Part shown: in pieces, positions 286 to 33,433 of the stretch
Layout: every line of letters begins with the position of its first letter
Numbering within the stretch: position 1 is the first letter of the stretch
From: an uncultured Clostridia bacterium
GTDB taxonomy: Bacteria; Bacillota; Clostridia; Christensenellales; Pumilibacteraceae
Assembly: GCA_947066105.1 (NCBI GenBank)
Contig: CAMSYM010000016.1
Location: 1 to 55,130, forward strand
Reading direction: 5' to 3'
DNA length: 55,130 nucleotides
Translations under genes and position numbers: made by a program
Notes under the pieces: generated by a model
Told to the model about the DNA's origin: nothing
Databases searched by the model: none
What the model saw: only the letters and a program-made list of their open reading frames with translations

Positions 286-999
286 ATGATGATCACGCGA
301 ATAGCGATAGTAGAGGACGACAATAGCGCGGCGGAATTGCTTTCGGGGTATCTCGATAAGTACTCTTCCGAAAACGGACGCAAGTTCGATGTGACCGTAT
401 TTTGCAATGCGGGAACATTTTTGACGGCGCGCGGATCGTTCGATATCGTTTTTATGGATATAGAATTGCCCGATCTCAACGGTTTGGACGCGTCCAAAAA
501 GTTCCGCGAAAAAGACGATGCGGCGCTTATAATTTTCGTAACCAATATGGCGTCGTTGGCGATAAAGGGATACGAAGTGCGGGCTTTCGATTTTGTGGTA
601 AAGCCTGTGTCGTACAAAAATTTCGCAGTCAAATTCAACAGCGCGCTGTCCGCGCTCGAACGCAAGCGCGGCAAGGATATTTGGATATCCAACAAGGACG
701 GAAAAGTAAAGCTCAACACTTGCGAGATCGAGTACGTGGAGATCATGCAACACATATTGATCTACCATACCGAGCGCGGCGAATATCGGGCGACAGGCAC
801 GCTCGCGATGTTGCAAAACGAACTGCGCGACGAGCCTTTTGCGCTGTGCAACCGTTGTTATTTCGTCAATCTCGCGCACGTATCCGCCGTTAAAGGGCAA
901 AACGCGTTGGTCGGCAATGCCGAGCTTATGATCTCGCGGTCTAAGCGCGTGCCGTTTTTGAGCGCGTTGAACAATTACATTGCCATGAGCGGGGATTGA
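286..999 (+). CDS. LytTR-family response regulator, module 1
   Basis: 237-residue two-component response regulator. The receiver domain (about 1-125) shows the acidic pocket E10-D11-D12, phosphoacceptor D58 in FMDIELP, T86 and K106 before Pro. The C-terminal LytTR DNA-binding domain (about 130-232) ends in the LCNR-C-FVNL type of sequence seen in AgrA/LytR relatives. Two in-frame ATG codons occur at 286 and 289; GGAG at 280-283 is better spaced for the second, so the true start may be 289. The kinase gene begins 1 nt after the stop, so the two are co-transcribed and presumably partners. Its likely targets include its own operon or the small membrane protein/GH3 operon next door, which has a LytTR-like direct repeat in front of its promoter. 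It is paralogous to the regulators at 16367 and 25734; target assignment is inference from position. Confidence 0.9.
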   Translation: MMITRIAIVEDDNSAAELLSGYLDKYSSENGRKFDVTVFCNAGTFLTARGSFDIVFMDIELPDLNGLDASKKFREKDDAALIIFVTNMASLAIKGYEVRAFDFVVKPVSYKNFAVKFNSALSALERKRGKDIWISNKDGKVKLNTCEIEYVEIMQHILIYHTERGEYRATGTLAMLQNELRDEPFALCNRCYFVNLAHVSAVKGQNALVGNAELMISRSKRVPFLSALNNYIAMSGD

Positions 1000-1000
1000 C

Positions 1001-2332
1001 ATGCTCACTTACATAGCGTTTTACAAATTGCTTTTTACGTTGGAGCTTGTAGTTGCGGAATTTTTGTTTTCGTTCCGATTGAAAAAGCGGTCGTACTATC
1101 CGTTGCGTTTGGCGGCGAGCGCGGCGGCGCTGTTGGGCATAGCCGCTATACCCATACCGATCGATATGTTTTGGCAAACGTCGTTGGTGTTTTTCATGCT
1201 GTTCGGTCTTTCCTTTCTCGCGCTGTGGTTTTGTTGCGACGAGCCTGTGTTCAACGTGTTTTTTTGCGCTATGGCGTCGTATACCGTACAGCATTTCGCT
1301 TATGAGTTTGCGGGCGTTTCGATGTCGCTGTTGGAATGGGGATCAAGCCCGTTGCGCGGCATGTACAGCAACGAGATAATGGATCTGTCCAAGTTCGACG
1401 AAATGACGGTATTGATCGTAACGCTGTATTTGATGTGCTATTTGCTGTCGTACTGGCTGTTGTTCATATCGTTCGGCAAAAAGATAAAAAAAGGCTCGGA
1501 CATGCACATCAAAAGCCCCGTGCTTTTCGGGCTTATCGCGGCGGGACTTCTTGCGGACGTTCTTATAAGCTCGATCGTAACTTATTACATGAGCGATCAC
1601 GCGCTCGGCTCGGCTGTCGCCAATGTGACTAACATGCTGTGTTGCGTGCTTTTGATGGGCTGTCAGTTCAATCAGTTGTCCACCAACGAAATAAGGGGCG
1701 AGCTGGATTTCGTCAAACGCCTGTGGCAACAGGAAAAAGAGCAGTTCGAAGTTTCGCGCGACAACATCGACATAATAAACATCAAGTGTCACGATATGCG
1801 ACACCGTATACGCGAGTTCGCGCAGAGCAAAAGCTTTTCGGACGAAGAGATACGCGAGATCGAACGATCTATCTCCATATACGACAGCGCGGTAAAAACG
1901 GGCAACGAGGCGCTCGACGTGATACTTACCGAAAAGAGCCTGCGCTGTAACGGTAACGACATAGCGTTCACGTGCGTCGCGGACGGCAAGCTGTTGAGCT
2001 TTATGACCGAGTCGGATATATATTCGCTGTTCGGCAACATCATGGACAACGCGATCGAAGCCGTGCTGAAAATCGAAGAACACGAAGGGCGCACGATAGG
2101 GCTTAAAATCAGAAGATCGGGCGGATTCGTTTCGGTCAACGCCAAAAACACGTATGTCGGCGATATAGAGCTTGACGCGCAGGGCTTGCCTATAACGACC
2201 AAAGCCGACAAAAACTCGCACGGATTCGGTATAAAAAGCATATCTTTTCTCGCCGCAAAATACGGCGGCAACCTGTCGCTGGTAGCGGAAAGCGGCGTAT
2301 TCAATCTGAATATCTTGTTCCCCGTGATATGA
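1001..2332 (+). CDS. AgrC-like GHKL sensor histidine kinase, module 1
   Basis: 443-residue membrane kinase. About seven hydrophobic segments fill residues 5-222 with little extracytoplasmic loop. A linker of about 30 residues leads to the H-box KCHDMRH with candidate phospho-His H264, then the ATPase N-box (GNIMDNAIEAV, N346-N350) and the G-box GFGIKS (about 408-413). This is the architecture of peptide-sensing AgrC/ComD kinases, but no AgrD/AgrB-like genes lie in the window, so the signal is unknown. It is the partner of the regulator 1 nt upstream by arrangement. Paralogues lie at 17087 and 26446; the H-box region and the C-terminal ...LPITTKADKNSHGFG... stretch are recognisably shared. A terminator follows, separating this pair from the GH3 operon. 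Confidence 0.88.
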   Translation: MLTYIAFYKLLFTLELVVAEFLFSFRLKKRSYYPLRLAASAAALLGIAAIPIPIDMFWQTSLVFFMLFGLSFLALWFCCDEPVFNVFFCAMASYTVQHFAYEFAGVSMSLLEWGSSPLRGMYSNEIMDLSKFDEMTVLIVTLYLMCYLLSYWLLFISFGKKIKKGSDMHIKSPVLFGLIAAGLLADVLISSIVTYYMSDHALGSAVANVTNMLCCVLLMGCQFNQLSTNEIRGELDFVKRLWQQEKEQFEVSRDNIDIINIKCHDMRHRIREFAQSKSFSDEEIREIERSISIYDSAVKTGNEALDVILTEKSLRCNGNDIAFTCVADGKLLSFMTESDIYSLFGNIMDNAIEAVLKIEEHEGRTIGLKIRRSGGFVSVNAKNTYVGDIELDAQGLPITTKADKNSHGFGIKSISFLAAKYGGNLSLVAESGVFNLNILFPVI

Positions 2333-2336
2333 TTTG

Positions 2337-2374
2337 ACGCGCCTGTACGGCAAAGCCCGAACGGCGCGTTTTTT
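2337..2374 (+). terminator. Rho-independent terminator after kinase 1
   Basis: ACGCGCC (2337-2343) pairs with GGCGCGT (2363-2369), followed by a run of six T. It separates the regulator/kinase transcript from the GH3 operon. Confidence 0.8.
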
Positions 2375-2409
2375 CGTGCGCGAAATTTCCGTATTCGCGT
2401 CGCGCCGTG

Positions 2410-2439
2410 CCGAATAAGAATTTCGCATGACCGAATAAG
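2410..2439 (+). promoter_or_regulatory. 9-bp direct repeat, candidate LytTR operator
   Basis: CCGAATAAG occurs exactly at 2410-2418 and again at 2431-2439, 21 bp start to start (12-bp gap), ending 9 bp before the -35 box of the GH3 operon. LytTR regulators typically bind two 9-bp direct repeats about 12 bp apart just upstream of the -35. The second copy also forms half of a perfect inverted repeat, GACCGAATA (2429-2437) and TATTCGGTC (2454-2462), that overlaps the -35. Binding by the regulator at 286 is inferred. Confidence 0.5.
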
Positions 2440-2448
2440 TATTGCATA

Positions 2449-2478: not shown

Positions 2479-2529
2479 CCGACAGAACGGTGCGCGATGC
2501 GTGCCGAAATCGTATCGGAGGTGAAAACG

Positions 2530-3060
2530 ATGACAGGGAAAGCTCGGGAGTTTTTCCTAAAAACCAAAAGGTTTCCGTTCGGGATCATTTGCGGCTCTTG
2601 CGGCATGGCGGTATTTTTCGCCACAATAGGGCTTGTTTTGGGCTACGCCGTTACGGCGGGCATAGCCGCGCAAACAAACAAAACGGTCTCGTTCCTGGAA
2701 AATTGGTGGCAGGTATTGCTTTTTATCGTTGTGATACTTGCCGCAACCGTAGCGGCGGCGTCGCTCGTGATGTACATACTCAAAAAGTTGACGCTTATCG
2801 CCGAGCAGGACGATAAGTATTTCGAGGAAGTGAGCGACGAAGAATATGCGCGCACCAACGTCGATATCGATTCGATAAAGGCGGAGCTTGCGCAAATGAC
2901 AGCTTACAATGCGGAGCTTAGGGCGGAGCTTGCGCGCTCGGAAGAGCGCAACGCCGCGCTCCAAACCGAACTCGAAACGGCAAAGGCGCAAAACGCCGAG
3001 CTTCTCGCGGAGTTGGAAGGCTTGCGCGCCGCTCAAAGCGCAAAACGGAGGAAAGCATGA
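2530..3060 (+). CDS. small two-helix membrane protein with coiled-coil tail
   Basis: 176 residues when started at the ATG at 2530, which is preceded by GGAGG at 2517-2521; an upstream in-frame ATG at 2449 lies inside the promoter and is rejected. Two transmembrane helices (about 17-42 and 58-85) flank the segment AAQTNKTVSFLENWW. The tail from about residue 105 is a long heptad-like region rich in Ala, Glu and Leu ending in KRRKA, probably a cytoplasmic coiled coil. The membrane part matches the 84-residue protein encoded at 28467 (same GII-G-C-M-VFF start and QTN-S--FL--W centre), which also sits directly before a GH3 gene. The stop overlaps the GH3 start by 4 nt (ATGA), so translation is coupled. 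I do not recognise the family; a chaperone, anchor or complex partner of the GH3 protein is a guess from context. Confidence 0.75.
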   Translation: MTGKAREFFLKTKRFPFGIICGSCGMAVFFATIGLVLGYAVTAGIAAQTNKTVSFLENWWQVLLFIVVILAATVAAASLVMYILKKLTLIAEQDDKYFEEVSDEEYARTNVDIDSIKAELAQMTAYNAELRAELARSEERNAALQTELETAKAQNAELLAELEGLRAAQSAKRRKA

Positions 3061-6000
3061 AAAAACGCAGACGTAAAATGACGGTATTCGTAAGATCGGT
3101 ATGGGTCATGCTCACGGTATTTTTCTCGTTGTTGCTCGTGTTCTTTTGCGTGGGTACGAGCGTGGCGACGAAAAATTCCGCGCCTATCAACTCAATGTTC
3201 GGCATAAGTACGAGCAAAAAGGTCCAGCTTACCGACGAGGTCGAGGATCTCGATCATTACAAATCGGACTATATCGAAAGAGAAGCCTCGGGCGAGCCTG
3301 TATATATAGAAAAGGACGGGTATAAGCAAACCGTTCTCGACGACGAGGCGATGCGTGAAAACTCGCGGCGCGTCGGCGAACAGACCGCTACGGAAGGCAG
3401 CGTGCTGTTGTGGAACAACGGCGCATTGCCGCTTTCGTCGGGCGCGAAAGTGAGCGTTTTCGGCATAGCGGCGCAAAACTATATGTTCAGCGGCACGGGT
3501 TCGGGCGAAGTCCAACCCAATCCCGTAAAAGGCACGCTCGGCGCGGCGCTCAAAGAAAAGGGATTGAGCGTTAACGACAAGCTCGAAACCAAATACAAGG
3601 AATTAAAAGCCAAGTACGGCGGCTCGTCGGGCTACACCAACAGCGCGGCGGCAAACTATCTGCCGTGGTTCAAGGTGGGCGAAGCGCCGTATTCGGAGAT
3701 CGCGTCGACGGTCGACGGTTCGGTGACGGCAGACGACACCGCGGTCATGATTATCGCGCGCACGGCGGGCGAGGACTTCGATATATCCAACGACGTTCGC
3801 GATTCCATCGTCGACGGAAGCAAGAACTATCTCGAACTCACGGTAGAGGAAGCGGGCATACTCGAAAACCTGCAAGCTCTCAAAGCGGCGAACAAGCTCA
3901 AAAAGATCGTGTTGCTTTTGGATACCGCCAACCCCATGCAGTTCGCCGAAATTTCCAAGGAAAAATACGGCGTGGACGCATGCGTGTGGACGGGGCAAGG
4001 CGGCACTATGAGCTTTGTTCAAGTGGCTAACGTGCTCGCGGGCGACGACGAATTCGTCGTTTCGGGGCATGCGACCGACACGTTGTTGTACAACAACTAT
4101 TCGTCGCCGTCAAACGCCAACTTCGGCGACTTTACCTGGTCGGAATATTCCAAAAACCTGCCCGATCTCGATAAAGAATACGGCTCGTATTACAGAACGC
4201 ACAACATGAAGTATCTTGTGTATCAAGAAGGCGTTTACGTCGGATACAGATACTACGAAACGCGTTACGAGGACTATGTTCTCGGCGGCGCGCAAGCGTC
4301 CGGTACGGTAGGCTCTACCGACGGCAAACAATGGAGCTACGAAAAAGAAGTTGCGTTCCCGTTCGGCTACGGGCTGTCGTACACCACGTTCGCGCGCTCG
4401 GAATTCAACGTGACCGAAACGGAAACGGGCTATGACGTATCGCTTAAAATAGCCAACGTCGGCAATAAATATGCGGGCAAGGACACGTTACAGGTGTATT
4501 TGCAAAAACCGTATACCGATTACGACAAGGCTAACGGCATAGAAAAACCTGCGGTCGAGCTTGTCGGCTTTGCCAAGACTCAAAAGCTCGATCCCAACGG
4601 CTCGTCGCAAACGCTTACCGTGTCGGTAGATAAAGAGAATCTGCGCACATACGACGCGTACGGCAAAAAGACGTACATACTCGAAGCGGGCGATTACTAT
4701 CTCGCCGTCGGCACCGACGCGCACGACGCGCTCAACAACATACTCGAATGCAAAGGCGTTGATGCCGAGCAAAAAGCGCGTATGGTCGGCACGGGCGACG
4801 CGGGCATGGCGTACCGTATAACGGTCGCCGACAACGACTACGAAGTGTTTTCCAAGGCGAAGGAAACGGGCAACGACATAACCAACCGTTTCGACGACGC
4901 CGATCTCAATCTTTACGAAGGCACGAAGGACGATCAAACGGTAACATATCTTACTCGCGACGATTGGGACGGAACGTACCCTACGGCGGCGGTAAGCCTT
5001 AAATGCGTGAACGAAACGATGGTGCGCGATATGCAGTACGGTCACGAAGTACCCGTAAACGACGGCGACAAGGAAAAGATGCCCGTTTACGGCAAGGTCA
5101 CTTCGCCTGACGGCGCGCTCAATCTCGCAATGATGACCGATCTCGACTATGACGATGATATGTGGGATCATTTGTTGAACCAAATGACGCTCGAAGAGCA
5201 GAACTGGATGTGCTCGCTCGGTCTCGGCTTTTTCGCCGCCGCGGAAAGCGTCGGCGCGCCGGGCGGAAAATCGGCGGACGGTCCCGCAGGCATACGCGAT
5301 CCCAACAAGAACCCGCGCGATAACGAATTCGGTTTCCCGTCGCCCGTAGTAATGGCGGCTACCTGGGATATCGAGCTTATGGAAAGAGTGGGCGACGCGA
5401 TGGCGCACGAAGCCATGCACTGGGATCCGAGCGTTTCGCTGATCTACGCGCCCGGCGCGGATATCCACAGATCCCCGTACGGCGGCAGAAACTGGGAATA
5501 TTACAGTGAGGACGGCGTGTTGTCGGGCATGATGCTCGCCGCCGAAGTAAAGGGCATTCAGGACGTAGGCATAATCGTCATGACAAAGCACTTTGCCATC
5601 AACGATCAGGAGCGCAACCGTTACGGCGTGGCGACGTTCTTTAACGAGCAAAGCGCGCGCGACATATATCTGCGCGCATTCGAGATAGCAGTAAGGCAGA
5701 GCAAGATGAACGGCGTCATGAGTTCGTTCAACCGCATAGGCTGCACCTGGGCGGGCGCGCATAAAGGGCTTTTGACCGACGTATTGCGCGGCGAATGGGA
5801 TTTCATAGGCATTGTCGAAACGGACGCTTGTTCGGGCGACACGTTCCACATGCTCGATAAGTATGCGTTGGCAGAAGGCATAGTCGCTGGCAACGACATG
5901 TGGATGGCTAACGGATCTACTTCGTTCTTTAACGACAGCAAAAACAACGCTACGGTAATGCTCGCTCTGCGCGAAGCGTGCCACAGGATACTGTACACGC

Positions 6001-9000
6001 AGTTGCACAGCGCGGCTATGAACGGCGTTTCGATAAATACCAAAATAATCACCATAACCCCGTGGTGGGAAATACTTCTTATCACACTGACGTCGCTCGT
6101 CGGCGTAATGCTGTTGGCGAGCGCGGTCATGTGCGCGCTGTCCTTCGTGTTTGCGACCGAACGCTATAAGGCATATGCCGCTCGGCGTGCGGAAGCAAAA
6201 CTCGCACGGGGGGGGGTATCCGCTTTAAAACCTTGGCAAAAAACTCTGATCATAGTCGGCGCGTGCGTGCTTGGTTTGGCGGCGTTGCTTACGGGTATTT
6301 TGGTGCCGACGTTGGGTAAAGACGACGGAACTACGCCCGTTAAAAAGCCGCACGTTTGCAAAAACATTTGCGTCGTTTGCGGAAAATGCACCGATCTGCA
6401 CTGCGAAGACGAAAAATGCGCCGATAAATGCGGCGGCGAAAAACATTCGTACGCCTTCGAGGCGGAAGACGCATTGTTCGGCGCAGGCATAAACGGCTGG
6501 GTTTGGACGGAGCAGTACGGATCGAGAACGGCTGTCGCGGGCTTGAACAAAAATAAAGACGCGTCGTTGACGTTCATCGTCAGAGCCGAAGCCGCGACCG
6601 TCGCGTCGCTCGTAGTCGACGTATCCAAATTCAAGGATTCACGCCTTGCGAGATTTACCGACTACATCGGCGTTACGGTAAACGACGGGGAGAACTTGAC
6701 GAGTTCTACCATAATATCCAAAACGACGACGGGCGATCAAACGACCGAAAGCTCGTTCCAAAGATTCAATCTCGGTTGCGTCGAGCTTAAAGCGGGCATA
6801 AACCTGATCAAGTTCACGGTGCTTGACAACAGCGAGAACAACGCTTATATCTTCGATAAGATAGAATTGCTCGGCGATTCGGCGTTGACCGCAGGGCATA
6901 TATGCACGAGTGTTTGCCCGTCTTGCGGCAAGTGTACGAACACCGAATGTACGGACGAAGCTTGCGCCGAAAAGTGCGATTGCGTGATAGCCGATTTCGA
7001 AGCCGAGAACGCGATATTCGTAGACGGCAAGCCGAAGTGGGGATATCTCGAAATAGCGAGCAACGACCAAGGTCGTACGTTTGTCAAAAACTTCAACGGC
7101 AATCCCGGCGCGGTGATCACGTTCAAGTTTACGGTCGACGGCGAACCGGGTACCGTTTACGAATCCGATCTCTACGTCACGGTTACGCGTTTTGCGATCG
7201 ATACGACGTTTACCGACGTCTTGGGCGTATCGATAAACGGCGGCGAGTACATCAAGAGCAATGCCGTCGTATCGGCGTTCGGCGGCGAAGCGTGGAGCGA
7301 CGAGTCGTACGGCGAGTTCTTTATCGGCAAGGTCGCGCTCAAAGCGGGCGAAAACAGCATATCGTTCACCGTATTGGGCGAAAACGAGTACAGCGGCTAT
7401 AACTTCGATAAGATAACTTTGCGCAAAGCGCCGCCGCTCGCGCACGAGTGCGGCGACAAATGCGAGATCTGCGGCGGATGCACGACCGACTGCGATAAGC
7501 CGGGCTGTGCCGATAAGTGCGAATGCGATAACATTACCGAAACCGTGACCGTCGAGGCGGAAGACTCTGCTTACGCTGACGGCGAAAATCCCCCGTCCTG
7601 GGGCGGCGTTCATACCGAAACGGACGGCGACGTTACATTCGTCGCGGGCTTTAACGGCAATGTGGGCGCGTGGATAGAATTCACGTACGAATCCGCTGGC
7701 GAGCGCGACGCGCTGTTGTTTGTCACCGTCAACAGGCGCAAAGTGACTACGGTGTTCTCCGATTGGATAACGACGCGTATAACGTATCCCGACGGAACTT
7801 TCGTCGAACCGATAAGCAACGCCGTGCTTGACGGCTATGCGTGGGTCGGCGAGAACGATAACGAATGGAAAGCGGGCGCGTTCGCAAAGATATGTATCGG
7901 CAAGATCGGATTGAAGAACGGCACGAACAAGATACGGTTCACCGTAAAAACTTTCGACAGCGTCAACGATCTCGGCGGATATAACTTCGATAAAGTTACG
8001 CTCGAATTGATAGGCGATGCGGAACCGCCCGTTGCCGTCGAGCATGATATAGTCGTTGCGGACAACATTCAAAACGGCTCTGTAACGGCGAGCGCGACCA
8101 AGGCGACTGCGGGTACGCAGATAACGGTGACGGTAACGCCCGATCAAGGCTACGTGCTTAAAAGCCTTAAATTCAACGGTACCGACTTCACGGAAAGCAA
8201 AACGTTCGTAATGCCGAACGCGGACGTGACGATCACCGCCCAATTCGTCGATGAAAGCGCGCCGCCTGCCGCAAAATACGACCTTACTTTCGAGCTTGAC
8301 GGCGGTAGCGGCGATATAATCGGCATTGAAGAAAGCTATGAGGAGGGCGCGGAGATAACCCTGCCTTCCGGCGACGGTCTTACCAAAGACGGATATGTTT
8401 TCGCGGGCTGGACTTATAACGGAACGGACTATGCGGCGGGCGATAAGTTCACGATGCCTGCGAGCGCGGTAGTCTTTACCGCGAAATGGACGGCTAAAAT
8501 ACCCGACGCCGTTTTCGAGGCGGAGGACGCGGAATACAAAGACGGAGCAAATCCGTCCGAGTGGGGCGGCGTTCATGTGGAAGAGATCAAGGTAGGCGAA
8601 ACCGTTACGCGCAAGGTCGTTGCGGGGCTTAACGAGAATCTCGGCGCGGAAGTTAAGTTTACGGTATTCGTCAACGGCGAAACCGATAAGACGTATTCCG
8701 CAACGCTTGCCGTTACGATTTCGAGAAACTGGTTCGGAAATCTGAAATTTACCGATTACATAGGCGTTAATGTAAATGATAAAGCGTTCACGAGCGACGT
8801 TGTCGTCGACGGCTATTGGGGAGACGGCGTCAATGTGTGGTCGGACGACGCGTCGTATATGGAATTCGTGTTGGGCGATATAGAATTAAAGTCGGGTACA
8901 AACGTAATTTCGTTTACGACGTTGTCCAACGAAAACGGTAAAGCTTGCAACTTCGATAAGATTGCGTTGCGCAATTTATCGGTCGAAGTTTCCGTGCCGC

Positions 9001-16309: not shown

Positions 16310-16338
16310 TTGACGGGCGGCTTTTGCGGTGTTACACT
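16310..16338 (+). promoter_or_regulatory. promoter of the second regulator/kinase pair
   Basis: TTGACG (16310-16315) and TACACT (16333-16338), 17-bp spacer. It is weaker than the promoters of the other two pairs. Confidence 0.55.
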
Positions 16339-22369: not shown

Positions 22370-25359
22370 TGACTGCGGACAAGAAAATGAAAAAATCGAT
22401 AGCGATAATCAACTACATAGCTATATTTTTGCTCATAGTGCTGTTTGTCGTTGCCGACTGCGTAGCGGGGCATTATGCCGACCACATTACGATATTTCTT
22501 TGCGGACAGGGCATAGACTATTCGTCGGAAGAATATCAGCAGAGCAAGGCGCAGGCGGAAGATCTTGCGATCGAGATAGCCGAAGAAGGCGCGGTGCTTT
22601 TGAAAAACAACAACGAAGCGTTGCCGCTCAGCAATCCATGTCTTAACGTGTTCGGTTGGGGCGGTTGCGACAACGGGTACATATACATGGGCTTCGGCTC
22701 GGGCACGGCGTCCACATACGGACAGCGCAGTCTTTACGACGGCTTGCGCGAAGCGGGGTTCGAGCTTAACGAAACGCTCGTAAACGCATACAACGGCAAA
22801 AAGTTCCGCCGCGACAGCGGTTGGGAAGCCGCAAGCTGGAAGCTTTACGAGCCGCTCGACGTGCTGTCCGACGCGAACATAAAAGAAGCCGTGGAATTTT
22901 CCGATACCGCGCTCGTTGTCATTTCACGGTTCGGCATGGAGGGGTACGATCTTCCCAAATACCAAAACAATTCGCAGGGCGTGAATATGAACAACGGCAG
23001 GACGTACTTACAGCTCACGCCCGACGAAGAGAGCATGATAAAGACGGTCACCGATAATTTCGACAACGTGATAGTTCTAATCAACAGTGCGAACGCAATG
23101 GAACTCGGTTTTTTGGACGACGATAAGATCGATGCGGCGATAGACGTGTTTTTTTCCGGTAACGTCGGCTCGCTCGGAATAGGCAAGCTTTTGACGGGCG
23201 AGATCACGCCGAGCGGACATTTGTCGGATACGTTCGCTTACGACCATACCACTTCGGCGGCTTATGCCAACATCGCCAACGGCATTACGGATTACACGGC
23301 GGTCGGCGGGCATTACATCGACTATACCGAAAACATCTATACGGGCTATTATTGGTACGAAACGGCGGATGCCGACGGGTTTTGGGACACCGATTTCGCA
23401 AAAAATAAGTGGGGCATAAAAAACGGCTATGCCGACGTGGTACAGTATCCGTTCGGCTACGGGCTGTCTTATGCGGACGATTTTATCTGGACGGTGGACG
23501 AAGTGTCCGTCCCCAACGGCAGTGCGCTCGATGCCGATTCGGAGATAGAGCTTACGCTTTCTGTGACGAACAACAGTCAATATTGGTCGGGTAAGGATGT
23601 AGTACAGCTGTATTTTTCGGCGCCTTATGTAAAGGGCGGGATAGAAAAGCCGTCTATCAAGCTCGGCGCGTTTGAAAAGACGGTCGAGCTCGCGCCCGGC
23701 AAGACGCAAAGCGACATCAAACTTTCGGTGCGCTTGCGCGATATGGCGAGCTACGATTGCTACGACAAAAACGATAACGGTTTTATCGGTTACGAAGCGG
23801 AATCGGGCGAATACGTGCTTTCGTTGCGTACCGACGCTCATACATTAAAGGATGGCGTACCCGTATTTAAGTTCAAACTCGACAGCAACGTGCGTTACGA
23901 AACGAGCGACGTGAACGATACGGTCGTCACCAACAAATTCACTACGTTCGAGCATTCGACGAGCGGCGCGAAAAGCACGTATTACGAGAAAAGCCTTTCG
24001 GCGGACAATAAAGCGTGGTCGATAGACGGCGGCGACAGCGAGCAGAACATAGCATACATGACGCGCGAGAATTTTGTTGCGTCGTTCCCGACCGAGCGCA
24101 TTCAGCGCACTGTTTCCAAAGAGTTCAAGGAAACGAGCTACATGCCCAATACGCCCAAAAAAGACGATGCCGACGTCGCGCCCGAATGGAATTCCAAAAA
24201 TACGAACTATAAACTTAACGACATGTACATACTCGACGCGTCGGGCAAGATTATCGGGCTCGTCGATTACAACGACAAAAAATGGGACGATCTGGTAAGT
24301 CAGCTCGACGTGGAAACCGTCGCGGAATTTTTGGCGGACGGCGGACTCGCTACCAACGCTATACCGTCCATAGGCAAACCCGCTTGCGTTGACAGCGACG
24401 GTCCCGCGGGCTTCAACACCACCATATTCGGCTCCGATCAGTTCGGCGGATATGCGGCGGGATATCCGTGCGAGGTCATGATAGCTTCCACATGGAACTG
24501 GCGCATGGCGTATCGCATGGGACAGTCCGTCGGTGCGGAAGGCGAGGCGGCGGGCATAGACGGTTGGTACGGTCCGGCGTGCAATCTTCACCGCGCTCCG
24601 TACGGCGGACGCAACTTCGAATATTACAGCGAAGACCCGTATCTATCGGGCGTGATGTGCAAGTATGCCGTGATAGGCGCAAAGGAGGAGGGTTTGTACG
24701 CGTATGTCAAGCATTTCGTAGCCAACGAGTCGGAAGCCAACCGTTCGGGCGGATACACCTGGCTCACAGAGCAGGCTCTCCGCGAAAACTATTTAAAGCC
24801 GTTCGAGATCGCCGTCAAGGAAGGCAAAACGCTTGCGATAATGTCGTCGTATAACCGTATCGGCGCGACGCGCACTTCGGGCAGCTACAATCTCTTGACC
24901 GAAGTGTTGCGCAACGAGTGGGGATTCCAAGGTAGCGTAATAAGCGATTACAACAACGGTATCCCCGTTCTGTGTCCCGACGAGGCTATACGCGCGGGCA
25001 ACGATCTTATGATGGAAGCGAGCGGAAATAAGTCCATGTTTACCGACCGGACGTCCGCTACCGCGCAAAAATGGTTGCACAACGGTGCGAAAAACGTTCT
25101 GTATACTTACTGCGCCGCACAATACCATATGGCGACGTCGACTGGACTCGATCTCGACGCGATGCTCGGCTCGCGCAAAACGCTGGACGTGTTCCGTTGG
25201 TGGATACCGCTTTTGGTGTCGGTAAACGTGCTTGTTTTGCTCGGCGCGGCGTTCTGGTCCGTAATGATATTCTGCTCGATGACGGGCAAGCGGTTGTTCA
25301 AGCGCAAGCGCGTCGCGGAAGGACCGCAGGACGAAAGCCCCGATAACGGCAACGAATAG
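22369..25359 (+). CDS. membrane-anchored, domain-permuted GH3 glycosidase, module 2
   Basis: 996 residues. TM1 about 11-33; GH3 sandwich domain (about 60-390, AVLLKNNNEALPL); FnIII-like domain (about 400-510); GH3 barrel domain (about 650-925) with DSDGPAGFN, YVKHFVANESEANR, MSSYNRIGATRT and candidate nucleophile D860 in VISDYNNG; C-terminal TM about 943-970 with a basic KRLFKRKR cytoplasmic end. The enzyme therefore loops out of the cell between two anchors. It carries no binding module of its own; those are on the lipoprotein encoded just upstream. The ISDY motif is closer to classical GH3 SDW than the TDA of the other two enzymes, so its specificity may differ. Hydrolysis of beta-linked glycosides is the family expectation. 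Confidence 0.88.
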   Translation: MTADKKMKKSIAIINYIAIFLLIVLFVVADCVAGHYADHITIFLCGQGIDYSSEEYQQSKAQAEDLAIEIAEEGAVLLKNNNEALPLSNPCLNVFGWGGCDNGYIYMGFGSGTASTYGQRSLYDGLREAGFELNETLVNAYNGKKFRRDSGWEAASWKLYEPLDVLSDANIKEAVEFSDTALVVISRFGMEGYDLPKYQNNSQGVNMNNGRTYLQLTPDEESMIKTVTDNFDNVIVLINSANAMELGFLDDDKIDAAIDVFFSGNVGSLGIGKLLTGEITPSGHLSDTFAYDHTTSAAYANIANGITDYTAVGGHYIDYTENIYTGYYWYETADADGFWDTDFAKNKWGIKNGYADVVQYPFGYGLSYADDFIWTVDEVSVPNGSALDADSEIELTLSVTNNSQYWSGKDVVQLYFSAPYVKGGIEKPSIKLGAFEKTVELAPGKTQSDIKLSVRLRDMASYDCYDKNDNGFIGYEAESGEYVLSLRTDAHTLKDGVPVFKFKLDSNVRYETSDVNDTVVTNKFTTFEHSTSGAKSTYYEKSLSADNKAWSIDGGDSEQNIAYMTRENFVASFPTERIQRTVSKEFKETSYMPNTPKKDDADVAPEWNSKNTNYKLNDMYILDASGKIIGLVDYNDKKWDDLVSQLDVETVAEFLADGGLATNAIPSIGKPACVDSDGPAGFNTTIFGSDQFGGYAAGYPCEVMIASTWNWRMAYRMGQSVGAEGEAAGIDGWYGPACNLHRAPYGGRNFEYYSEDPYLSGVMCKYAVIGAKEEGLYAYVKHFVANESEANRSGGYTWLTEQALRENYLKPFEIAVKEGKTLAIMSSYNRIGATRTSGSYNLLTEVLRNEWGFQGSVISDYNNGIPVLCPDEAIRAGNDLMMEASGNKSMFTDRTSATAQKWLHNGAKNVLYTYCAAQYHMATSTGLDLDAMLGSRKTLDVFRWWIPLLVSVNVLVLLGAAFWSVMIFCSMTGKRLFKRKRVAEGPQDESPDNGNE

Positions 25360-25519: not shown

Positions 25520-25546
25520 TTGACATTTCGGGGGGGGGGGTATAAT
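25520..25546 (+). promoter_or_regulatory. promoter with G11 spacer for the third regulator/kinase pair
   Basis: Perfect TTGACA (25520-25525) and perfect TATAAT (25541-25546) are separated by 15 bp, of which the last eleven are G. Two more G would give the optimal 17-bp spacing. Promoters with a homopolymer in the spacer are the classical phase-variable design of Neisseria porA and opc. As sequenced the spacing is short, so a weak state is predicted. Confidence 0.85.
25530..25540 (+). repeat. G11 homopolymer in promoter spacer
   Basis: Eleven consecutive G directly abut the -10 box TATAAT. It is the longest homopolymer I see in the window. Confidence 0.9.
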
Positions 25547-25552
25547 ATATAC

Positions 25553-25733: not shown

Positions 25734-26444
25734 ATGATATTAAGAGCGTGCGTCGTCGAGGACAATAAGGAGTCGAGCGATTTCATATGCTCGTGTTTGG
25801 AGAAATACGCGAAGTCGCGCGACGGGTACGAGTTTAACATTGCGCGTTACGGCGACGCGCTGTCGTTTTTGGACGAGTTTTGCGGCAACTACGATATAAT
25901 TTTCATGGATATAGAATTGCCGCACATGAACGGAATGGACGCGGTGCGTCGTATCCGCGAAAAGGATCAAAACGTTATAGTCATTTTCGTTACCAACATG
26001 GCGCAGTACGCCGTAAAGGGTTACGAAGTCGATGCGTTCGACTTTATAGTAAAACCCGTAAAATACGATAACTTCGCGATGAAAATGGACAGGGCGATAA
26101 GCAAGTACGATCAATCGCGAAGCAAGGATATTTGGATATCCGAGCGCAATAACAAACGGCGGTTGCGCGTATCGGATATCAAGTATGTGGAGGTCGCGCA
26201 TCATTGCGTCGTATATCATACGGTCGACGGGGATTTTGCGACGTACGATCAGTTGTACAACGTATGCGAGACTTTAAAGGATGCGCCGTTCGAGCTGTGT
26301 AACCGTTGTTTTTTGGTCAATCTCAAATATGTGACGGCTATCGAAGAATTTTCGGTCACGGTCGCCGGCGAAAAGTTGCAGATATCGCGCAATAAGAAAA
26401 AAAGTTTTTTGCAAAGCCTTAACGAGTATCTCGGGGGAAAATAG
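25734..26444 (+). CDS. LytTR-family response regulator, module 3
   Basis: 236 residues. Receiver domain with E9-D10, phosphoacceptor D59 in FMDIELP, T87 and K107; LytTR domain about 132-236 with the LCNRCFLVNLKYV core. Start ATG follows AGGGGAGG. Transcribed from the promoter whose spacer is a G11 tract, so expression of the whole pair is predicted to vary with tract length. The kinase starts 1 nt after the stop. Likely targets are its own promoter or the GH3 operon at 28467, by analogy to the other two modules. Confidence 0.9.
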   Translation: MILRACVVEDNKESSDFICSCLEKYAKSRDGYEFNIARYGDALSFLDEFCGNYDIIFMDIELPHMNGMDAVRRIREKDQNVIVIFVTNMAQYAVKGYEVDAFDFIVKPVKYDNFAMKMDRAISKYDQSRSKDIWISERNNKRRLRVSDIKYVEVAHHCVVYHTVDGDFATYDQLYNVCETLKDAPFELCNRCFLVNLKYVTAIEEFSVTVAGEKLQISRNKKKSFLQSLNEYLGGK

Positions 26445-26445
26445 T

Positions 26446-27783
26446 ATGCCGATGCTCCTGTTTTACCGTTTGCTCGTAATGTTCGAGCTGTTTACGGCGG
26501 AGTTTTTATTTGCGTTGCGACTGCGCAAGCGCAGACTGTTTTGGCTGAGATTTATCGGTTGCGTTATCGTAGGCGAAGGCATAGCCGCCGCGTTGCCGCT
26601 TTTGTACAATGCGTTTTATACGTCGTTCACGTTTTTGCTGTTGTTCATCATCACGGTGCCTATGCTCGAATTTTGTTGCGACGAGAGCTGGAAAAACGTC
26701 ATATTTTGCGGCATCGCGGCGTACACCATGCAGCATCTCGCTTACGGTGTCGCCAACTTTTTGATATCGGCGATAGCGGGCGATCAAAGCTTGATATTCG
26801 GCATGTATTTCGAGGGCGCGTTCGATTTTTCCAAAATGGACTATGTTACGCTTCTTGCGATATTCTTGTATGCGTTAGCATATTTTTGCGCGTACACTCT
26901 GTTTTACTATTTATTCATACGCAAAATTAAGCGCAACGAGGAATTCCGCATAAGGCGAACGAGCGTTCTCATAGTTATCGGTTTTGCGCTGTTGATCGAT
27001 ATATTGCTAAACTCGATCATCGTCTATTACGTCGGCGACCGCAGTCTGTTATCGATGTTGATGGATATCGTTTACGAAAGCCTGTGTTGCGGATTTTTGC
27101 TGTACATACAGTTCGGACTGGTAGAAACGGGCGAGCTTAAAAACGAGCTTGACGCCACGCATTATCTTTTGCGCGAAAAAGAGAGACAATACAACATTTC
27201 CAAAGCGAATATCGAGCTTATCAATCTCAAATGCCACGATCTGCGTCATCAAATACGCTCGATAGGCGAGCAAAAATCGTTGGCGGCGGACGCCATCAAA
27301 GAGATCGAGCAGTCGATCAACATTTACGATGCGGCGGTGCGCACGGATAACGAAGTGCTGGATACCATACTCACCGAAAAAAGCTTGCTGTGCGCGCGCG
27401 ACGGCATTTCGCTCACGTGCATGGTCGACGGGCATTCGCTCGACTTCATGACAGCGGCGGACGTGTATTCGCTGTTCGGCAACGCGTTGGAAAACGCAAT
27501 GGACGCGGTCATGCGGCTCGACGAGCAAAAACGCAACATCAGCGTTGCGGTGCATAAAGTGGGCGACATGGTGTCCGTCAATATAACCAATCAATTCGAC
27601 GGCAATGTGGAACTCGATGCGGACGGATTGCCCGTTACCAAAAAAGACGATCGCGATTTCCACGGTATTGGCATAAAATCGATACGCAATATCGCCGAAA
27701 AGTACAACGGCATTTGTTCTGTCGCAACCGAAAACAATAAGTTCGTGCTTAACGTGCTGATGTCGTGCTTGACGAATAAGTAA
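26446..27783 (+). CDS. AgrC-like GHKL sensor histidine kinase, module 3
   Basis: 445 residues with about seven hydrophobic segments in residues 5-225, H-box LKCHDLRHQIR with candidate H264, N-box FGNALENAMDAVMR and G-box GIGIKSIRNI. The second Asn-box position reads Glu-Asn (LENAMDA) where kinases 1 and 2 have MDNAIEA, a mild variation. It is most similar in length and layout to kinase 1. The gene closes the regulator/kinase transcript; no obvious terminator follows directly, and the next gene begins 683 bp later. Confidence 0.88.
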   Translation: MPMLLFYRLLVMFELFTAEFLFALRLRKRRLFWLRFIGCVIVGEGIAAALPLLYNAFYTSFTFLLLFIITVPMLEFCCDESWKNVIFCGIAAYTMQHLAYGVANFLISAIAGDQSLIFGMYFEGAFDFSKMDYVTLLAIFLYALAYFCAYTLFYYLFIRKIKRNEEFRIRRTSVLIVIGFALLIDILLNSIIVYYVGDRSLLSMLMDIVYESLCCGFLLYIQFGLVETGELKNELDATHYLLREKERQYNISKANIELINLKCHDLRHQIRSIGEQKSLAADAIKEIEQSINIYDAAVRTDNEVLDTILTEKSLLCARDGISLTCMVDGHSLDFMTAADVYSLFGNALENAMDAVMRLDEQKRNISVAVHKVGDMVSVNITNQFDGNVELDADGLPVTKKDDRDFHGIGIKSIRNIAEKYNGICSVATENNKFVLNVLMSCLTNK

Positions 27784-28466: not shown

Positions 28467-28721
28467 ATGAAGAAAGTGCCTTGGGGCATTATCATGGGAA
28501 TATGCGCCATGTTCGTCTTTTTTTTGACGGTGGGGCTTGTTGCCGTTCATTTGGGGCTTAACGGCATAGCCGAGCAAACAAACGAATCCATAGCGTTTTT
28601 GGGCGTATGGTACGAAGTGTTGATGTTTGTCTTCGATATCGTATTTGTTTTGGGCTTCGCCGGTTCTTTGACTATGTACATATTCAAGGAAAAAGGCAGA
28701 TTCGGGGAGGTGAACGCATAA
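28467..28721 (+). CDS. small two-helix membrane protein, module 3
   Basis: 84 residues from the ATG at 28467 (ribosome-binding site AAGGAG). Two transmembrane helices (about 5-30 and 47-72) flank GIAEQTNESIAFLGVWYEV. It is a shorter homologue of the protein at 2530: the membrane part is shared and the coiled-coil tail is absent. In both modules it stands directly before a GH3 gene of the TDA type; here the stop and the GH3 start overlap (TAATG). Family not recognised. The repeated pairing suggests a subunit, anchor or assembly factor for the GH3 protein. Confidence 0.75.
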   Translation: MKKVPWGIIMGICAMFVFFLTVGLVAVHLGLNGIAEQTNESIAFLGVWYEVLMFVFDIVFVLGFAGSLTMYIFKEKGRFGEVNA

Positions 28722-31700
28722 TGAACGATTTTGTTAAAAACAGAGTGTTTAAGCGTTCCATGTGGACGCTGTTGGCTGTATTTTTTGCGTTGATATTTAT
28801 AATTTTTCTTGTTGCAACGCCTATAACTCAACAGTATCAAATGTTCGTCGATCAGTTTTTCGGCGTGACTACGCGCAAACAACAGGTAAAGAGCGAAAGC
28901 TCCGATCCCGCGGATTATCAATACTACACGTCCGAATTTGCCAAAAAGGACGAAAACGGCAAATATTTGGTCGAAGAAAACAGGGGAGTCATGACGCAGG
29001 TATTGGATACCGACGCCATGCGCAAACATTCGGAGGACGTTGCGCGCCAAGCGGTAAGCGAAGGTACGGTCGTGCTTTGGAACAACGAGATCGACGCGGC
29101 TGCTCACACGAAAGCGTTGCCGCTCGCCAAGGGCAGTAAAATAAGTCCGTTCGGTATCGGCGTGACGAATTATCAATATCACGGAATAGGTAGCGGCAAG
29201 GTCGAACCGAGTAGCGAAGACAGACTCGACGTCGAAAAGGCGCTTACGCGCGACGGCGTCGGACTTAAACTCAATCCCGCGACTATGAGCGCCATACGCG
29301 CGGGCGAAAAGCAAGGGTATACGGTGTCCATGGGCGGCGTAAGCGATATTCCGTGGGATAAATACACGAGTACGGAAAAGAACAGCGTTGTAGCGTATAA
29401 GGACGCCGCGGTGTATATGATATGCCGTTATTTCGGCGAAGGTAGCGCCAATAAGGACGATCAGTGGAAAACGTCTTACGACGGCGACGGAAATATGTTT
29501 ACTTTGACCAAAGCCGAGTATTCCACGCTTACAGGATTGACGGAGCTGAGAAAGAGCGGCAAGATCAACAGGTTGATCGTAACGATCAATTCGCCTACGC
29601 CGTTCAATCTTAAAGGCTTCGATCAAAGCGGTATAGACGCGTGTCTTTGGATAGGATTCGGCGGCGAGATGGGTCCCGAATCGCTCGGCGACGTGCTTGT
29701 AGGCAATGTCGAGCCGTCCGGGCATCTTACCGATTCGTGGGCTTACGATATGTATTCCGCGCCCGCGGCATGGAACTTCGGCAATTTCAAATATTCGTCG
29801 TTGCCAGGCAACGCGCCCAAAGACCACAATGCGTATGTAATATATCAAGAGGGTATTTATGTCGGATACAAATACTACGAGACTCGTTACGAGGACGTCG
29901 TGCTGAAACGCGGCAATGCGGATAACGGCGTAGGCGGTATAATGAAAACCGACAAATGGGATTATAACAGCGAGCTTGCTTATTCCTTCGGATACGGCGC
30001 GGGCTACAACGACTACGAGTACAGTAACGTCAAGTTCGATAAAGACGGCGACGATTACAAGGTGAGCGTAACGGTCACGAATAAGGGAACTATGCCGGGC
30101 AAGGACGCGGTGCAGGTCTATTTGCAAAAGCCGTATACGAAATACGATATAGATAACGGCATCGAAAAGGCGGCTGTCGAACTTGTGGGCTTTGCAAAGA
30201 CCGAAGAGATAGCGCCCGGCGCTACCGACACCGTTACTATCACCGTACCCGAATACGAGTTCAAAAGCTACGACGCAAACGGTTACAAGACGTATATTTT
30301 GGAAGGCGGCGACTACTATCTTGCCGTAGGGCAGAGTTCGCACGACGCGCTCAACAACATACTCGCTCAAAAGGGCAAGAGTACCGTAGACGGCATGGAT
30401 TACAACGGTAAAGCGGAGTTCGTCAAAAAGTACAATTACGCCAAGACCGACGCCGTAAAATACAGCAAGGGCGTTAAAGCCGATATAACCAATCAATTCG
30501 ACGACGCAGATCTTTTGCGTAACGAAGAAATGAAAGAGTCGGTCGCGGCGCGCGGCTTTAAGTACTTGTCGCGCAACAACTGGCTCGGCACATGGTCGGG
30601 CGGTATATACGATCTTGCGCTCGTCGGCGAAAAGAACGAACAGCAGCTTATTTTCCAAAAAGATATTCCCAACGATCCGGAAGATGAAATGCCTATTTAC
30701 GGTACGGATACTTCCGAATTCGGACACTTGATGCTTGTACAGCTCAGAGGACTCGATTACGAGGATCCGCTGTGGGAAGATCTTCTCAATCAAATGACGT
30801 TCGAGCAACAGCAAAAGCTTATGCAAAGTTGCGCGGTAGCCGCTATCACCGATAAAGACGAAAACAGCATAATGTCGCCCGGCATCAATCAGCAAGACGG
30901 ACCGATGGGCGTTCGCAATACGCGTTTCGCGTTGCCGTCCAATCCCGTCAATGCCTGCACGTTCAACGTAGAACTTATGCACGAGCTCGGCGTCGTTTTC
31001 GGCACGGAAATGCTTGCAAAAGGCTGGGGCGGCGTTTACGGGCTTGCTTGCAACACGCATCGCACGCCTTGGGGCGGAAGAGCTTACGAGTATTACAGTG
31101 AGGACGGTTTCCTTACGGGCAGGATAAGCAGCGCCGAAACAAAGGGCATGCGCGAGATGGGCGTTATACTGTATACCAAACACTTCGCGCTCAACGATCA
31201 AGAGATGAACCGCGGGATAGGCGTAAATACTTGGTCCAACGAGCAAGCTATCCGCGAGCTCTATCTCAAAGCTTTTGAAACGTCTATTTTGGAAGGCGGT
31301 TGCAACGGACTTATGACTTCGTATAACGCGATAGGCACGACGTGGGCAGGCTCGCACGAAGGACTGTTGACTAACGTTTTGCGCAAGGAATGGGGCTTTA
31401 ACGGCATTACCATCACCGATGCTTGCGGAACCAACGCTTATATGGGCGGCGCACCGAGCGTATTGGCGTATGCCAATCTCGCAGGGCAGGACGCTTGGAT
31501 GGGCAATTTCCCCGTCGGCGCGCTCGATTCGTATTATAACAATAATAATGCTACGGTATGTTTGGCTGTACGCGAATCGGCGCACAGAATACTTTATACC
31601 CAACTCCATTCGCTCATGATGAACGGCATTTCCGCCGACACGAGATTTATAGAAGTCGTTCCCGGTTGGGAAACGGGATTGCTTGCGATAAAAATAGTAT

Positions 31701-31801
31701 CCGGCATTTTGATGGGTTTGTGTCTCGGCATGGTCGCCGCGTCTTGGGCGATCTGGTACCTTGGCAAAAAACAAGAAGGCAATCAACCTAAGGAGGGTTA
31801 A
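28721..31801 (+). CDS. membrane-anchored, domain-permuted GH3 glycosidase, module 3
   Basis: 1026 residues when started at the ATG 28721, which follows GGGGAGG at 28704-28710 and overlaps the previous stop; the frame is open further upstream but only as a shadow of the small membrane-protein gene. TM1 about 12-35; GH3 sandwich domain (about 100-430, TVVLWNNE); FnIII-like domain (about 440-550); GH3 barrel (about 690-960) with QQDGPMGVRN, YTKHFALNDQEMNR and candidate nucleophile D900 in TITDACG; C-terminal TM about 987-1012. It is closest to GH3-1 (shared YQEGIYVGYKYYETRYEDV stretch), but ends where GH3-1 continues into its binding modules. The binding function appears to sit on the lipoprotein encoded next. 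Confidence 0.88.
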   Translation: MNDFVKNRVFKRSMWTLLAVFFALIFIIFLVATPITQQYQMFVDQFFGVTTRKQQVKSESSDPADYQYYTSEFAKKDENGKYLVEENRGVMTQVLDTDAMRKHSEDVARQAVSEGTVVLWNNEIDAAAHTKALPLAKGSKISPFGIGVTNYQYHGIGSGKVEPSSEDRLDVEKALTRDGVGLKLNPATMSAIRAGEKQGYTVSMGGVSDIPWDKYTSTEKNSVVAYKDAAVYMICRYFGEGSANKDDQWKTSYDGDGNMFTLTKAEYSTLTGLTELRKSGKINRLIVTINSPTPFNLKGFDQSGIDACLWIGFGGEMGPESLGDVLVGNVEPSGHLTDSWAYDMYSAPAAWNFGNFKYSSLPGNAPKDHNAYVIYQEGIYVGYKYYETRYEDVVLKRGNADNGVGGIMKTDKWDYNSELAYSFGYGAGYNDYEYSNVKFDKDGDDYKVSVTVTNKGTMPGKDAVQVYLQKPYTKYDIDNGIEKAAVELVGFAKTEEIAPGATDTVTITVPEYEFKSYDANGYKTYILEGGDYYLAVGQSSHDALNNILAQKGKSTVDGMDYNGKAEFVKKYNYAKTDAVKYSKGVKADITNQFDDADLLRNEEMKESVAARGFKYLSRNNWLGTWSGGIYDLALVGEKNEQQLIFQKDIPNDPEDEMPIYGTDTSEFGHLMLVQLRGLDYEDPLWEDLLNQMTFEQQQKLMQSCAVAAITDKDENSIMSPGINQQDGPMGVRNTRFALPSNPVNACTFNVELMHELGVVFGTEMLAKGWGGVYGLACNTHRTPWGGRAYEYYSEDGFLTGRISSAETKGMREMGVILYTKHFALNDQEMNRGIGVNTWSNEQAIRELYLKAFETSILEGGCNGLMTSYNAIGTTWAGSHEGLLTNVLRKEWGFNGITITDACGTNAYMGGAPSVLAYANLAGQDAWMGNFPVGALDSYYNNNNATVCLAVRESAHRILYTQLHSLMMNGISADTRFIEVVPGWETGLLAIKIVSGILMGLCLGMVAASWAIWYLGKKQEGNQPKEG

Positions 31802-33433
31802 ATGATGAAAAAAAGTGCAAAAATAATGAGCGTTATACTTTCGCTCGCCATGGGCATGTCGGTATTTTCGCTGACCGCGTGCGGCGAAACCGAGCCTAAG
31901 CCCGAACCGCCGAATCCGCCCGAGCCGCCCGCGCATACGCATACATTCGATATGAATAAGTGGGAGAGCGACGAGAGCGAGCATTGGCACCCTGCTACTT
32001 GCGAACACAAGACCGAAAAGAACGGCGTCGAGGAACATGATACGGAAGGAACCGACAGCGGCTGTTCGGTATGTGAACGTCCGCATGTTCACACCTTTGC
32101 GGAAGAATGGACATACGACGAGGCTGAAAGACCGGGCAAACATTGGCACGCCGCCACGTGCATTCACTTCGCTCTCATAGACGGCGAAGCCGATCACGTA
32201 ATGGAAAATCACGCGTGTACCGTTTGCGGTTACGAGGAACACGTACATACCTTTGCTTCCGAATGGTCTACAAGCTCGTACGCGCATTGGAAAGCGGCGA
32301 CGTGCGCCGGCGATAAAGCGGACGACGTAAATATATATGCCGATGATTCCGGAAGACATACGTATGATGCAGACAATAAATGTACCGTTTGCGACTATCG
32401 GCATACACACTCCAAAGATACCGATTATTGGATGGTCGACGAAACTTCGCATTGGCACGGGTACAATTGCGAACATGCGAATACTTTGACGGATAAACCC
32501 GATTTGGCAAATCACGATACTAACGGAAAGAACGGCGCATGTACTGTCTGCGGTTGGTTACCGATAGTTGAGACTCCGGAAAAGGATGCGGAAAATAACG
32601 TGATCAACGGTCATGTCCATTCGTTCAAATGGGAAGCAAGCCCCGATTATCATTGGAAGCGTATAGTTTGCGACTGGATGAAAAGCAACGGTTGCAAGTC
32701 GTGCGACAAAGGATATTACGCTCACACTCCGAAAGTTTACGATTTGACAGAGCATGTATTCAACGAAAAAGGCGCGTGTGAGTGCGGCTATCAATACAGT
32801 TCGTGGACTTACGCTACCGCCGATTGCATCGAGTGCGAAACGTGCGGCGGCTGCATAAAAACCGTTTGCGATCACGAAAACGAAGCCGAACATAAAAAGT
32901 GCGGGCATAAACACGGCGCCGACGCAAAGACGGTAACTCTCGAAGCCGAAAACGGCTTTTTGTGGAAAACCGATAATAGCAAACCGGGAATTTCCGATTA
33001 TACCGGCGGTAAGCGTGACGGCATAGCGATAGATAATAAAGTAAACGTCAGTTGGACTATAACCGTAAACAAAGCGACTACCGTTACGCTCAGACTGCGT
33101 TGCACGCGAAGAGAGGGCGGCGCGTTTGAAAACAGCGGTACGGTAACGGTCAACGGTGTCGAGCTTACAACAAAAACCACGATGGCTCAACCGACAGCTA
33201 AGATGGAAGATGCTAAGTGCAATCCCGCATGGCTTACGTTCGGGTGTATAGAGCTTAAAGCGGGTGAGAACGTTATAGAGATAACCCAAACCGGCGAAGG
33301 GTTCAATCTCGACAAGATAGAGCTTATAACCGCCGCAGACGTGACGATCGATCATACTCCGATCGATAACGCATGGCTTACCGTGCTCAAACAAAACGTT
33401 CCGATCCCCCGCGAGATAAAGCCGCAGGAATAA
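31802..33433 (+). CDS. His/Cys-rich repeat lipoprotein with C-terminal CBM-like domain
   Basis: 543 residues. A lipoprotein signal ends at SLTAC (Cys about 27), followed by a Pro/Glu linker. Five to six repeats of about 50-60 residues follow, each with HxHxF, a Trp, HWHxATC and CxVCGx (about 38-330); the four Cys/His positions suggest metal binding, probably zinc, which is inference. A Cys-rich spacer CIECETCGGC resembles those between the binding modules of GH3-1. Residues about 375-515 form an EAENGF...FNLDKIELI carbohydrate-binding-like domain. ATG codons at 31802 and 31805 are both possible; the second is better spaced from AGGAGG at 31791-31796. Last gene of the module 3 operon. Confidence 0.8.
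   Translation: MMKKSAKIMSVILSLAMGMSVFSLTACGETEPKPEPPNPPEPPAHTHTFDMNKWESDESEHWHPATCEHKTEKNGVEEHDTEGTDSGCSVCERPHVHTFAEEWTYDEAERPGKHWHAATCIHFALIDGEADHVMENHACTVCGYEEHVHTFASEWSTSSYAHWKAATCAGDKADDVNIYADDSGRHTYDADNKCTVCDYRHTHSKDTDYWMVDETSHWHGYNCEHANTLTDKPDLANHDTNGKNGACTVCGWLPIVETPEKDAENNVINGHVHSFKWEASPDYHWKRIVCDWMKSNGCKSCDKGYYAHTPKVYDLTEHVFNEKGACECGYQYSSWTYATADCIECETCGGCIKTVCDHENEAEHKKCGHKHGADAKTVTLEAENGFLWKTDNSKPGISDYTGGKRDGIAIDNKVNVSWTITVNKATTVTLRLRCTRREGGAFENSGTVTVNGVELTTKTTMAQPTAKMEDAKCNPAWLTFGCIELKAGENVIEITQTGEGFNLDKIELITAADVTIDHTPIDNAWLTVLKQNVPIPREIKPQE

Follow-up and report, generated by a model that had tools for sequence, protein, structure and literature searches.

The stretch of DNA analysed here, which we call the window, is 55,130 nt long (contig CAMSYM010000016.1, positions 1 to 55,130, forward strand, assembly GCA_947066105.1) and comes from an uncultured Clostridia bacterium (Bacillota; Clostridia; Christensenellales; Pumilibacteraceae), whose genome we label G000 and whose window contig we label C16. 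It contains three gene cassettes, each with a LytTR response regulator (RR), a GHKL kinase (HK) and, downstream, a gene for a permuted GH3 protein, together with exactly three G/C runs of at least nine bases, which we consider here as candidate poly-G contingency loci.

A first, sequence-only reading had reported three LytTR/GHKL pairs, each with a permuted GH3 gene downstream, and exactly three long G homopolymers starting at 6208, 16515 and 25530, placed in an enzyme gene, a regulator gene and a promoter spacer respectively. All of this is borne out. Pfam finds three LytTR response regulators and three HATPase_c_5 (GHKL) kinases, and in all three GH3 proteins the domain order is GH3_C, Fn3-like, GH3_N; the G9, G10 and G11 tracts fall at codon 1051 of GH3_1, at codon 50 of RR2 and in a TTGACA/TATAAT spacer. 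The AgrA/AgrC-type arrangement, i.e., a receiver plus LytTR regulator beside a GHKL kinase, is found by Pfam for the three pairs of the window and by tblastn for the others in the genome. The first copy runs RR1, HK1 and GH3_1, the latter with a tail of InlB-type and CBM-like modules; the second runs RR2, HK2, a Big_3 protein and GH3_2; and the third runs RR3, HK3, GH3_3 and a partner without Pfam match. Six housekeeping-type genes (tgt, YgjP-like, ruvC, RNase H, VTT, thrS) lie between the first and second copies. The features are as follows.

233..261, + strand: cassette 1 promoter TTGACA-17-TATAAT, tract-free (sequence reading)
286..999, + strand: RR1, LytTR response regulator (Pfam)
991..994, + strand: GGGG, 6 nt ahead of the HK1 start, the site of G9-11 at other loci (sequence)
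1001..2332, + strand: HK1, GHKL kinase (Pfam HATPase_c_5)
3057..9485, + strand: GH3_1, permuted GH3 with long InlB-type/CBM-like tail, 2142 aa (Pfam)
6063..6305, + strand: two hydrophobic segments flanking G9, codons 1003-1030 and 1063-1083 (judged by eye)
6208..6216, + strand: G9 where the GH3 part meets the tail, codon 1051, frames agree (sequence)
16310..16338, + strand: cassette 2 promoter-like TTGACG-17-TACACT, tract-free (sequence reading)
16367..17080, + strand: RR2, LytTR response regulator, ATG start (Pfam; start from sequence)
16515..16524, + strand: G10 in the RR2 receiver domain, codon 50, frames agree (sequence)
17087..18451, + strand: HK2, GHKL kinase (Pfam)
18641..22369, + strand: Big_3 (Ig-like) partner protein (Pfam)
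22369..25359, + strand: GH3_2, permuted GH3 (Pfam)
25520..25546, + strand: cassette 3 promoter TTGACA (25520-25525)-15-TATAAT (25541-25546) (sequence)
25530..25540, + strand: G11 occupying the cassette 3 promoter spacer, upstream of RR3 (sequence)
25734..26444, + strand: RR3, LytTR response regulator (Pfam)
26433..26437, + strand: GGGGG, 8 nt ahead of the HK3 start (sequence)
26446..27783, + strand: HK3, GHKL kinase (Pfam)
28607..31801, + strand: GH3_3, permuted GH3 (Pfam)
31802..33433, + strand: partner protein with lipoprotein-like start, without Pfam match (Pfam, sequence)

Apart from the three tracts the 55,130 bases of the window contain no G/C run of even 7 bases, and their A/T runs reach at most 8 (one T8, one A8). 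The whole genome (2,047,803 bases) contains 51 G/C runs of at least 9, three of them in the window, with 27 of length 9, 21 of length 10 and three of length 11. The length distribution is bimodal: the 87 runs of at least 6 bases divide into 36 of 6-8 and 51 of 9-11, and in 385 kb made up of the window and fetched DNA, a sample enriched for tracts, the counts for lengths 4 to 11 are 668, 58, 7, 0, 1, 27, 21 and 3, with no A/T run longer than 8. Markov models of order 1-5, trained on the fetched DNA with the tracts removed, predict only 0.03-1.3 runs of at least 9 for the entire 2.05 Mb genome. Number and length of the runs thus lie far beyond chance, as for known poly-G contingency loci, and the original estimate of about 0.3 runs per 55 kb was too lenient. 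Because the genome averages 1.4 tracts per 55 kb, the window with its three has only about twice the mean and is no outlier within its own genome.

The cassettes had also been described as triplicated, a label that does not hold, as the window copies are three of 19 LytTR loci in the genome (20 matches, one gene being split at its own tract). GH3 has 32 matches, which we count as 30 genes, and for 17 of the 19 LytTR genes a GH3 gene follows 3.7-7.4 kb downstream on the same strand; the remaining two lie at a contig edge (C6) and in a locus with reversed kinase-to-regulator order (C9). Fifteen of the 19 cassettes carry a tract, at a control point that differs among them, and two of the 15 stretches so counted have a second tract, which in one case adjoins an intergenic repeat and in the other is the promoter tract of the next cassette. 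Specifically, the 19 regulator/kinase zones (46 kb) hold 12 of the 51 tracts where 1.16 are expected (p 1.3e-9). By our own sorting the others comprise 12 beside an intergenic repeat, five further promoter spacers and 22 elsewhere. Pfam matches were obtained for 22 of 30 scanned proteins in or next to tracts, and include GH3, GH16, BspA-type LRR, Big_3, InlB-type, AraC, HisKA kinase and ABC transporters, as well as an epimerase, a tyrosine phosphatase, a phosphatidylserine decarboxylase and a phage terminase. Three tracts follow a signal-peptide-like start (codons 31, 34 and 39). A change of tract length would shift the frame or promoter spacing of surface and regulatory genes, although not at the 12 repeat-associated tracts.

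In the promoter of cassette 3 (25520-25546) the run lies between -35 and -10 in the right orientation, and the spacer with its G11 is 15 nt long; cassettes 1 and 2, whose promoters lack a tract, have spacers of 17 nt. Across the genome TTGAC occurs no further than 22 nt upstream of the run for 8 of the 51 tracts (controls: GTCAA before, 0; TTGAC after, 2), and in genome G020 in 12 of 46 (controls 0 and 1), with the best -10 word at 16-17 nt in 9 of those 12. Of 396 genomes in the order, 78 contain the pattern TTGAC, 1-10 nt, G8, 0-2 nt, TATNNT, and its reversed form occurs in none among the matches listed. In G016, of the same genus as the window's genome, four spacer runs have about 12-14 G, longer than the 9-11 found here.

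The junction between regulator and kinase carries 12 tracts at eight loci, six junctions in this genome and six in a sister species, G006. The run supplies glycine codons for the regulator's end and itself stops 5-12 nt ahead of the kinase start, where ribosomes usually bind. In two of the three frames, at every one of the eight loci, the regulator stops within -6 to +13 nt of the kinase start, while two such near frames (-13 to +15 nt) occur in 6 of 15 tract-free junctions. The third frame runs on for 46-269 nt, and at one locus through the whole kinase (1344 nt), merging regulator and kinase, so that a run near the 3' end gives alternative ends or a merged frame, as in C-terminal phase variation and gene fusion. 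The run-on state is present at two of the six junctions here and one of the six in G006. Some tract-free junctions carry G3-G5 at the tract position (991-994 and 26433-26437 in the window) and others none; a seventh junction tract in this genome sits at the kinase-to-regulator junction of the reversed C9 locus. Coupling of regulator and kinase would then be gained and lost with run length.

Comparison with the sister rests on one genome per species, both metagenome assemblies, that of G006 being 88% complete with 6% contamination. Fifteen of the 51 tracts align across to fetched G006 stretches; five have unequal lengths (10/9, 9/8, 10/9, 9/11 and 10/11), so that length does vary between relatives, and two are interrupted in the sister. 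ON and OFF alleles are seen between the species only, for two genes. A regulator on contig C21 is split exactly at its G10 here and is a single open frame with G9 in G006, and in a lipoprotein on C9 the signal peptide and the 1341-aa body are out of frame with each other at the G10 found here, while in G006, with G9, they share one frame. In 14 own-sister alignments mismatch near tracts is not raised (0.096 up to 10 nt away and 0.100 at 101-500 nt), whereas gaps are (0.082 and 0.011), in part because gaps are placed next to runs of unequal length. G006 contigs end at four further tracts, of which two belong to the window. The cassette 2 tract appears there as G9 with disagreeing frames at one contig end and as G11 beside junk at another, the cassette 3 tract is an assembly break, with G13 at one of its contig ends, G10 at the other and junk next to each, and contig C77 of G006 spans from the second to the third tract of the window. 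Mixtures of lengths would cause such breaks, or poly-G may simply be hard to sequence. G/C-rich low-complexity sequence directly beside tracts is seen at the G006 contig ends L099, L103, L104 and L106, and short-read assemblies may therefore lose such switches. Within single assemblies of other families no length variants of the same locus were found, the ten pairs compared being repeats or partly alike loci; in one candidate pair, in G346, the likeness is limited to 63 bp.

Taken from sequence, the best reading is that the tracts of the window are part of a set of poly-G contingency loci that spans the genome, with phase variation by slippage at several levels, to which we assign a probability of roughly 0.8. 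This suggests random variation of the bacterium's surface, in the manner of Campylobacter and Neisseria. Tract positions, enrichment, frames and the frame differences between the two species are established directly, and from them we infer slippage as the cause, reversibility, effects on expression and a benefit. Replication slippage would lengthen or shorten a run slightly, by a single base or a few, with the consequence depending on where the run lies. Between -35 and -10 it would change promoter spacing and with it the amount of regulator and kinase; inside a receiver or LytTR domain it would keep or break the regulator; and at the ribosome-binding position of the kinase it would set whether the regulator frame ends at the kinase start (coupled) or runs past or into the kinase. 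At the joint between GH3 part and tail the run would decide whether the enzyme carries its tail, and after a signal peptide whether the surface protein is made at all. Since 15 of the 19 paralogues have a tract, and not all at the same place, one population could contain many combinations of sensors and enzymes.

The combinatorial phase variation first proposed for this locus stands in part: the tracts do sit at the levels of output structure, signal transduction and regulator expression, a pattern shared by 15 of the 19 cassettes, and at several tracts the frame state is unlike that of the sister. Several observations weigh against it. At the GH3_1 joint the tract is G9 in both species and the frame difference comes from an adjacent 4-base indel, which in G006 ends the GH3 frame at once and leaves the tail open in another frame over the stretch shown. 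The 12 tracts that adjoin the intergenic repeat show no evident switch and are probably without function. Eight of the 15 aligned tracts have the same length in G006, 32 of the 51 have no alignment among the stretches fetched, and losses in the sister are under-counted because those stretches were mostly picked for holding a run of at least 7. The best -10 words after the eight TTGAC sites of the genome lie at 12, 15, 16, 16, 17, 19, 19 and 20 nt, a spread which means that several of these promoters would be weak or misassigned. The trait is also patchy: 47 of the 61 genomes searched (own included) hold at least one run of 9 or more, with 0 to 29 in 19 relatives of the same genus and 0 to 48 in other members of the family, and five family-wide relatives among the 61 have complete genomes with no or few tracts. 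In G020, scanned in 40 stretches that hold 46 of its 48 tracts, the neighbours include no cassette proteins save one weak receiver-like hit (L168, 1e-7), and recruitment of poly-G to the LytTR sensor family therefore looks local. The base before the run is C at 47 of 48 places in G020, and many tracts of the window's genome are likewise preceded by C; C before and TA after many of the latter was considered as the mark of an inserted element. Loss of mismatch repair as the cause of the runs is rejected, mutS and mutL both being above cut-off in the window's genome, which also counts against phase variation as read here. In G055 (family f20, 97% complete), with 18 runs of at least 9 and seven poly-G spacer promoters, neither mutS1 nor mutL has a match, and that lineage may lack mismatch repair, unlike the window's genome.

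An alternative, which we regard as unlikely though it fares best among the rivals, is that the tracts are a mutational by-product, in a lineage that lengthens G runs past a threshold anywhere and tolerates most of them, GGG being a glycine codon. The intergenic repeat speaks for it. Copies of the repeat end in CGRRATGAY-G, and 58 have G3-G4, five G5, none G6-7, one G8 and 12 G9-G10, although the search word also picks up chance matches; examples in the genome are L041:3980 and 4438 and L015:9065 and 9377. This jump implies that mutational habit accounts for part of run growth and that selection may act on it, and tracts inside genes such as the epimerase and the phage terminase fit the same picture. 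However, neutrality does not lead one to expect the enrichment in regulator/kinase zones, the correctly oriented promoter spacers or the position 5-12 nt before the kinase start. Considerably less probable is that slippage of RNA polymerase or the ribosome yields both products from each genotype, the runs being programmed recoding sites rather than heritable switches. Both species do keep frames open on either side of their tracts, and one locus has the fused regulator-kinase frame, but recoding leaves the promoter-spacer tracts unexplained, and such slippage is better known on A/T runs. A sequencing or assembly artefact of poly-G, which the junk and conflicting lengths at G006 contig ends might suggest, is very improbable given that all 51 tracts lie inside contigs with unique flanks and on both strands, that they recur at orthologous places in a separate assembly, and that the spacer pattern is directional across the order.

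A more specific version of the phase variation reading, which we put forward tentatively and rate somewhat below even odds, is a three-state translational gate, where the G run would be both the ribosome-binding site of the kinase and the setter of the regulator frame, slippage by a single base would shift the sensor pair among two coupled states and one run-on state, the latter at one locus being a complete fusion of regulator and kinase, and the roughly 19 cassettes, most of them with a GH3 enzyme as partner, would act as a heritable combinatorial code for carbohydrate sensing, built on an order-wide poly-G system.

If phase variation is correct, a consensus genome cannot reveal how such bacteria behave, and assemblies from short reads may break at the very sites of the switches. 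Some 19 parallel circuits would be naturally suited to studying how one bacterium spreads its bets over many sensors, and the copies of the intergenic repeat are a ready-made series for the study of run-length jumps. Three further observations concern the window. In the partner protein at 31802..33433, residues 345-518 show weak similarity to the beginning of the GH3_1 tail (27%, 8e-9, tblastn). A 3965-aa open frame at 37060-48957 (+) has as its sole Pfam match an ALK/LTK glycine-rich domain (residues 93-354). A 21-base piece of the cassette 3 promoter, searched for in viral contigs, was not found there.

The best-known examples of poly-G phase variation come from Campylobacter, Helicobacter and Neisseria. 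In the open-licence literature no paper on it in such Clostridia, or on phase-variable LytTR/GHKL systems, stood among the matches listed, which is weak evidence of absence, and our literature searches found no earlier description of an order-wide poly-G system of this sort. In Neisseria porA-type promoters a poly-G run lies between -35 and -10 and its length sets the spacing; the promoter spacers described here are alike, except that they occur across an order of Clostridia and that one copy stands ahead of a two-component system. Bordetella BvgS is a two-component sensor made phase-variable by a homopolymer frameshift. In C. jejuni, FlgS/FlgR vary via short A/T runs, which a review describes as non-reversible (PMC8355987). 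Both resemble our regulators in that a homopolymer shifts the frame of a sensor or regulator gene, but they are single systems, whereas here 12 of 19 paralogous loci have a G tract in the regulator/kinase zone.

Campylobacter genomes have many G/C homopolymers, mostly in genes with a minority intergenic, and C. jejuni strains have 18-39 phase-variable genes (PMC6321876, PMC8355987). The present genome belongs to another phylum and has 51 runs, all of 9-11, concentrated on a two-component family and surface enzymes, many of them in promoter spacers. In Helicobacter canadensis, 3'-end poly-G changes the C-terminus in eight unrelated genes, and a frame change could merge HCAN_0660/0661, perhaps without precedent according to the authors of that study (PMC2823697). 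Our junctions are similar, in that poly-G at a gene end sets the C-terminus and may fuse the product with its neighbour; the difference is that here one and the same junction, regulator to kinase, is involved each time, at eight loci over the two species, and that the run occupies the place where ribosomes would bind for the second gene. Among gut Gram-positives, Bifidobacterium breve reportedly switches its pili ON and OFF by poly-G slippage; there the bacteria are Actinobacteria and the targets pilus clusters, whereas here they are cassettes of sensors and enzymes.

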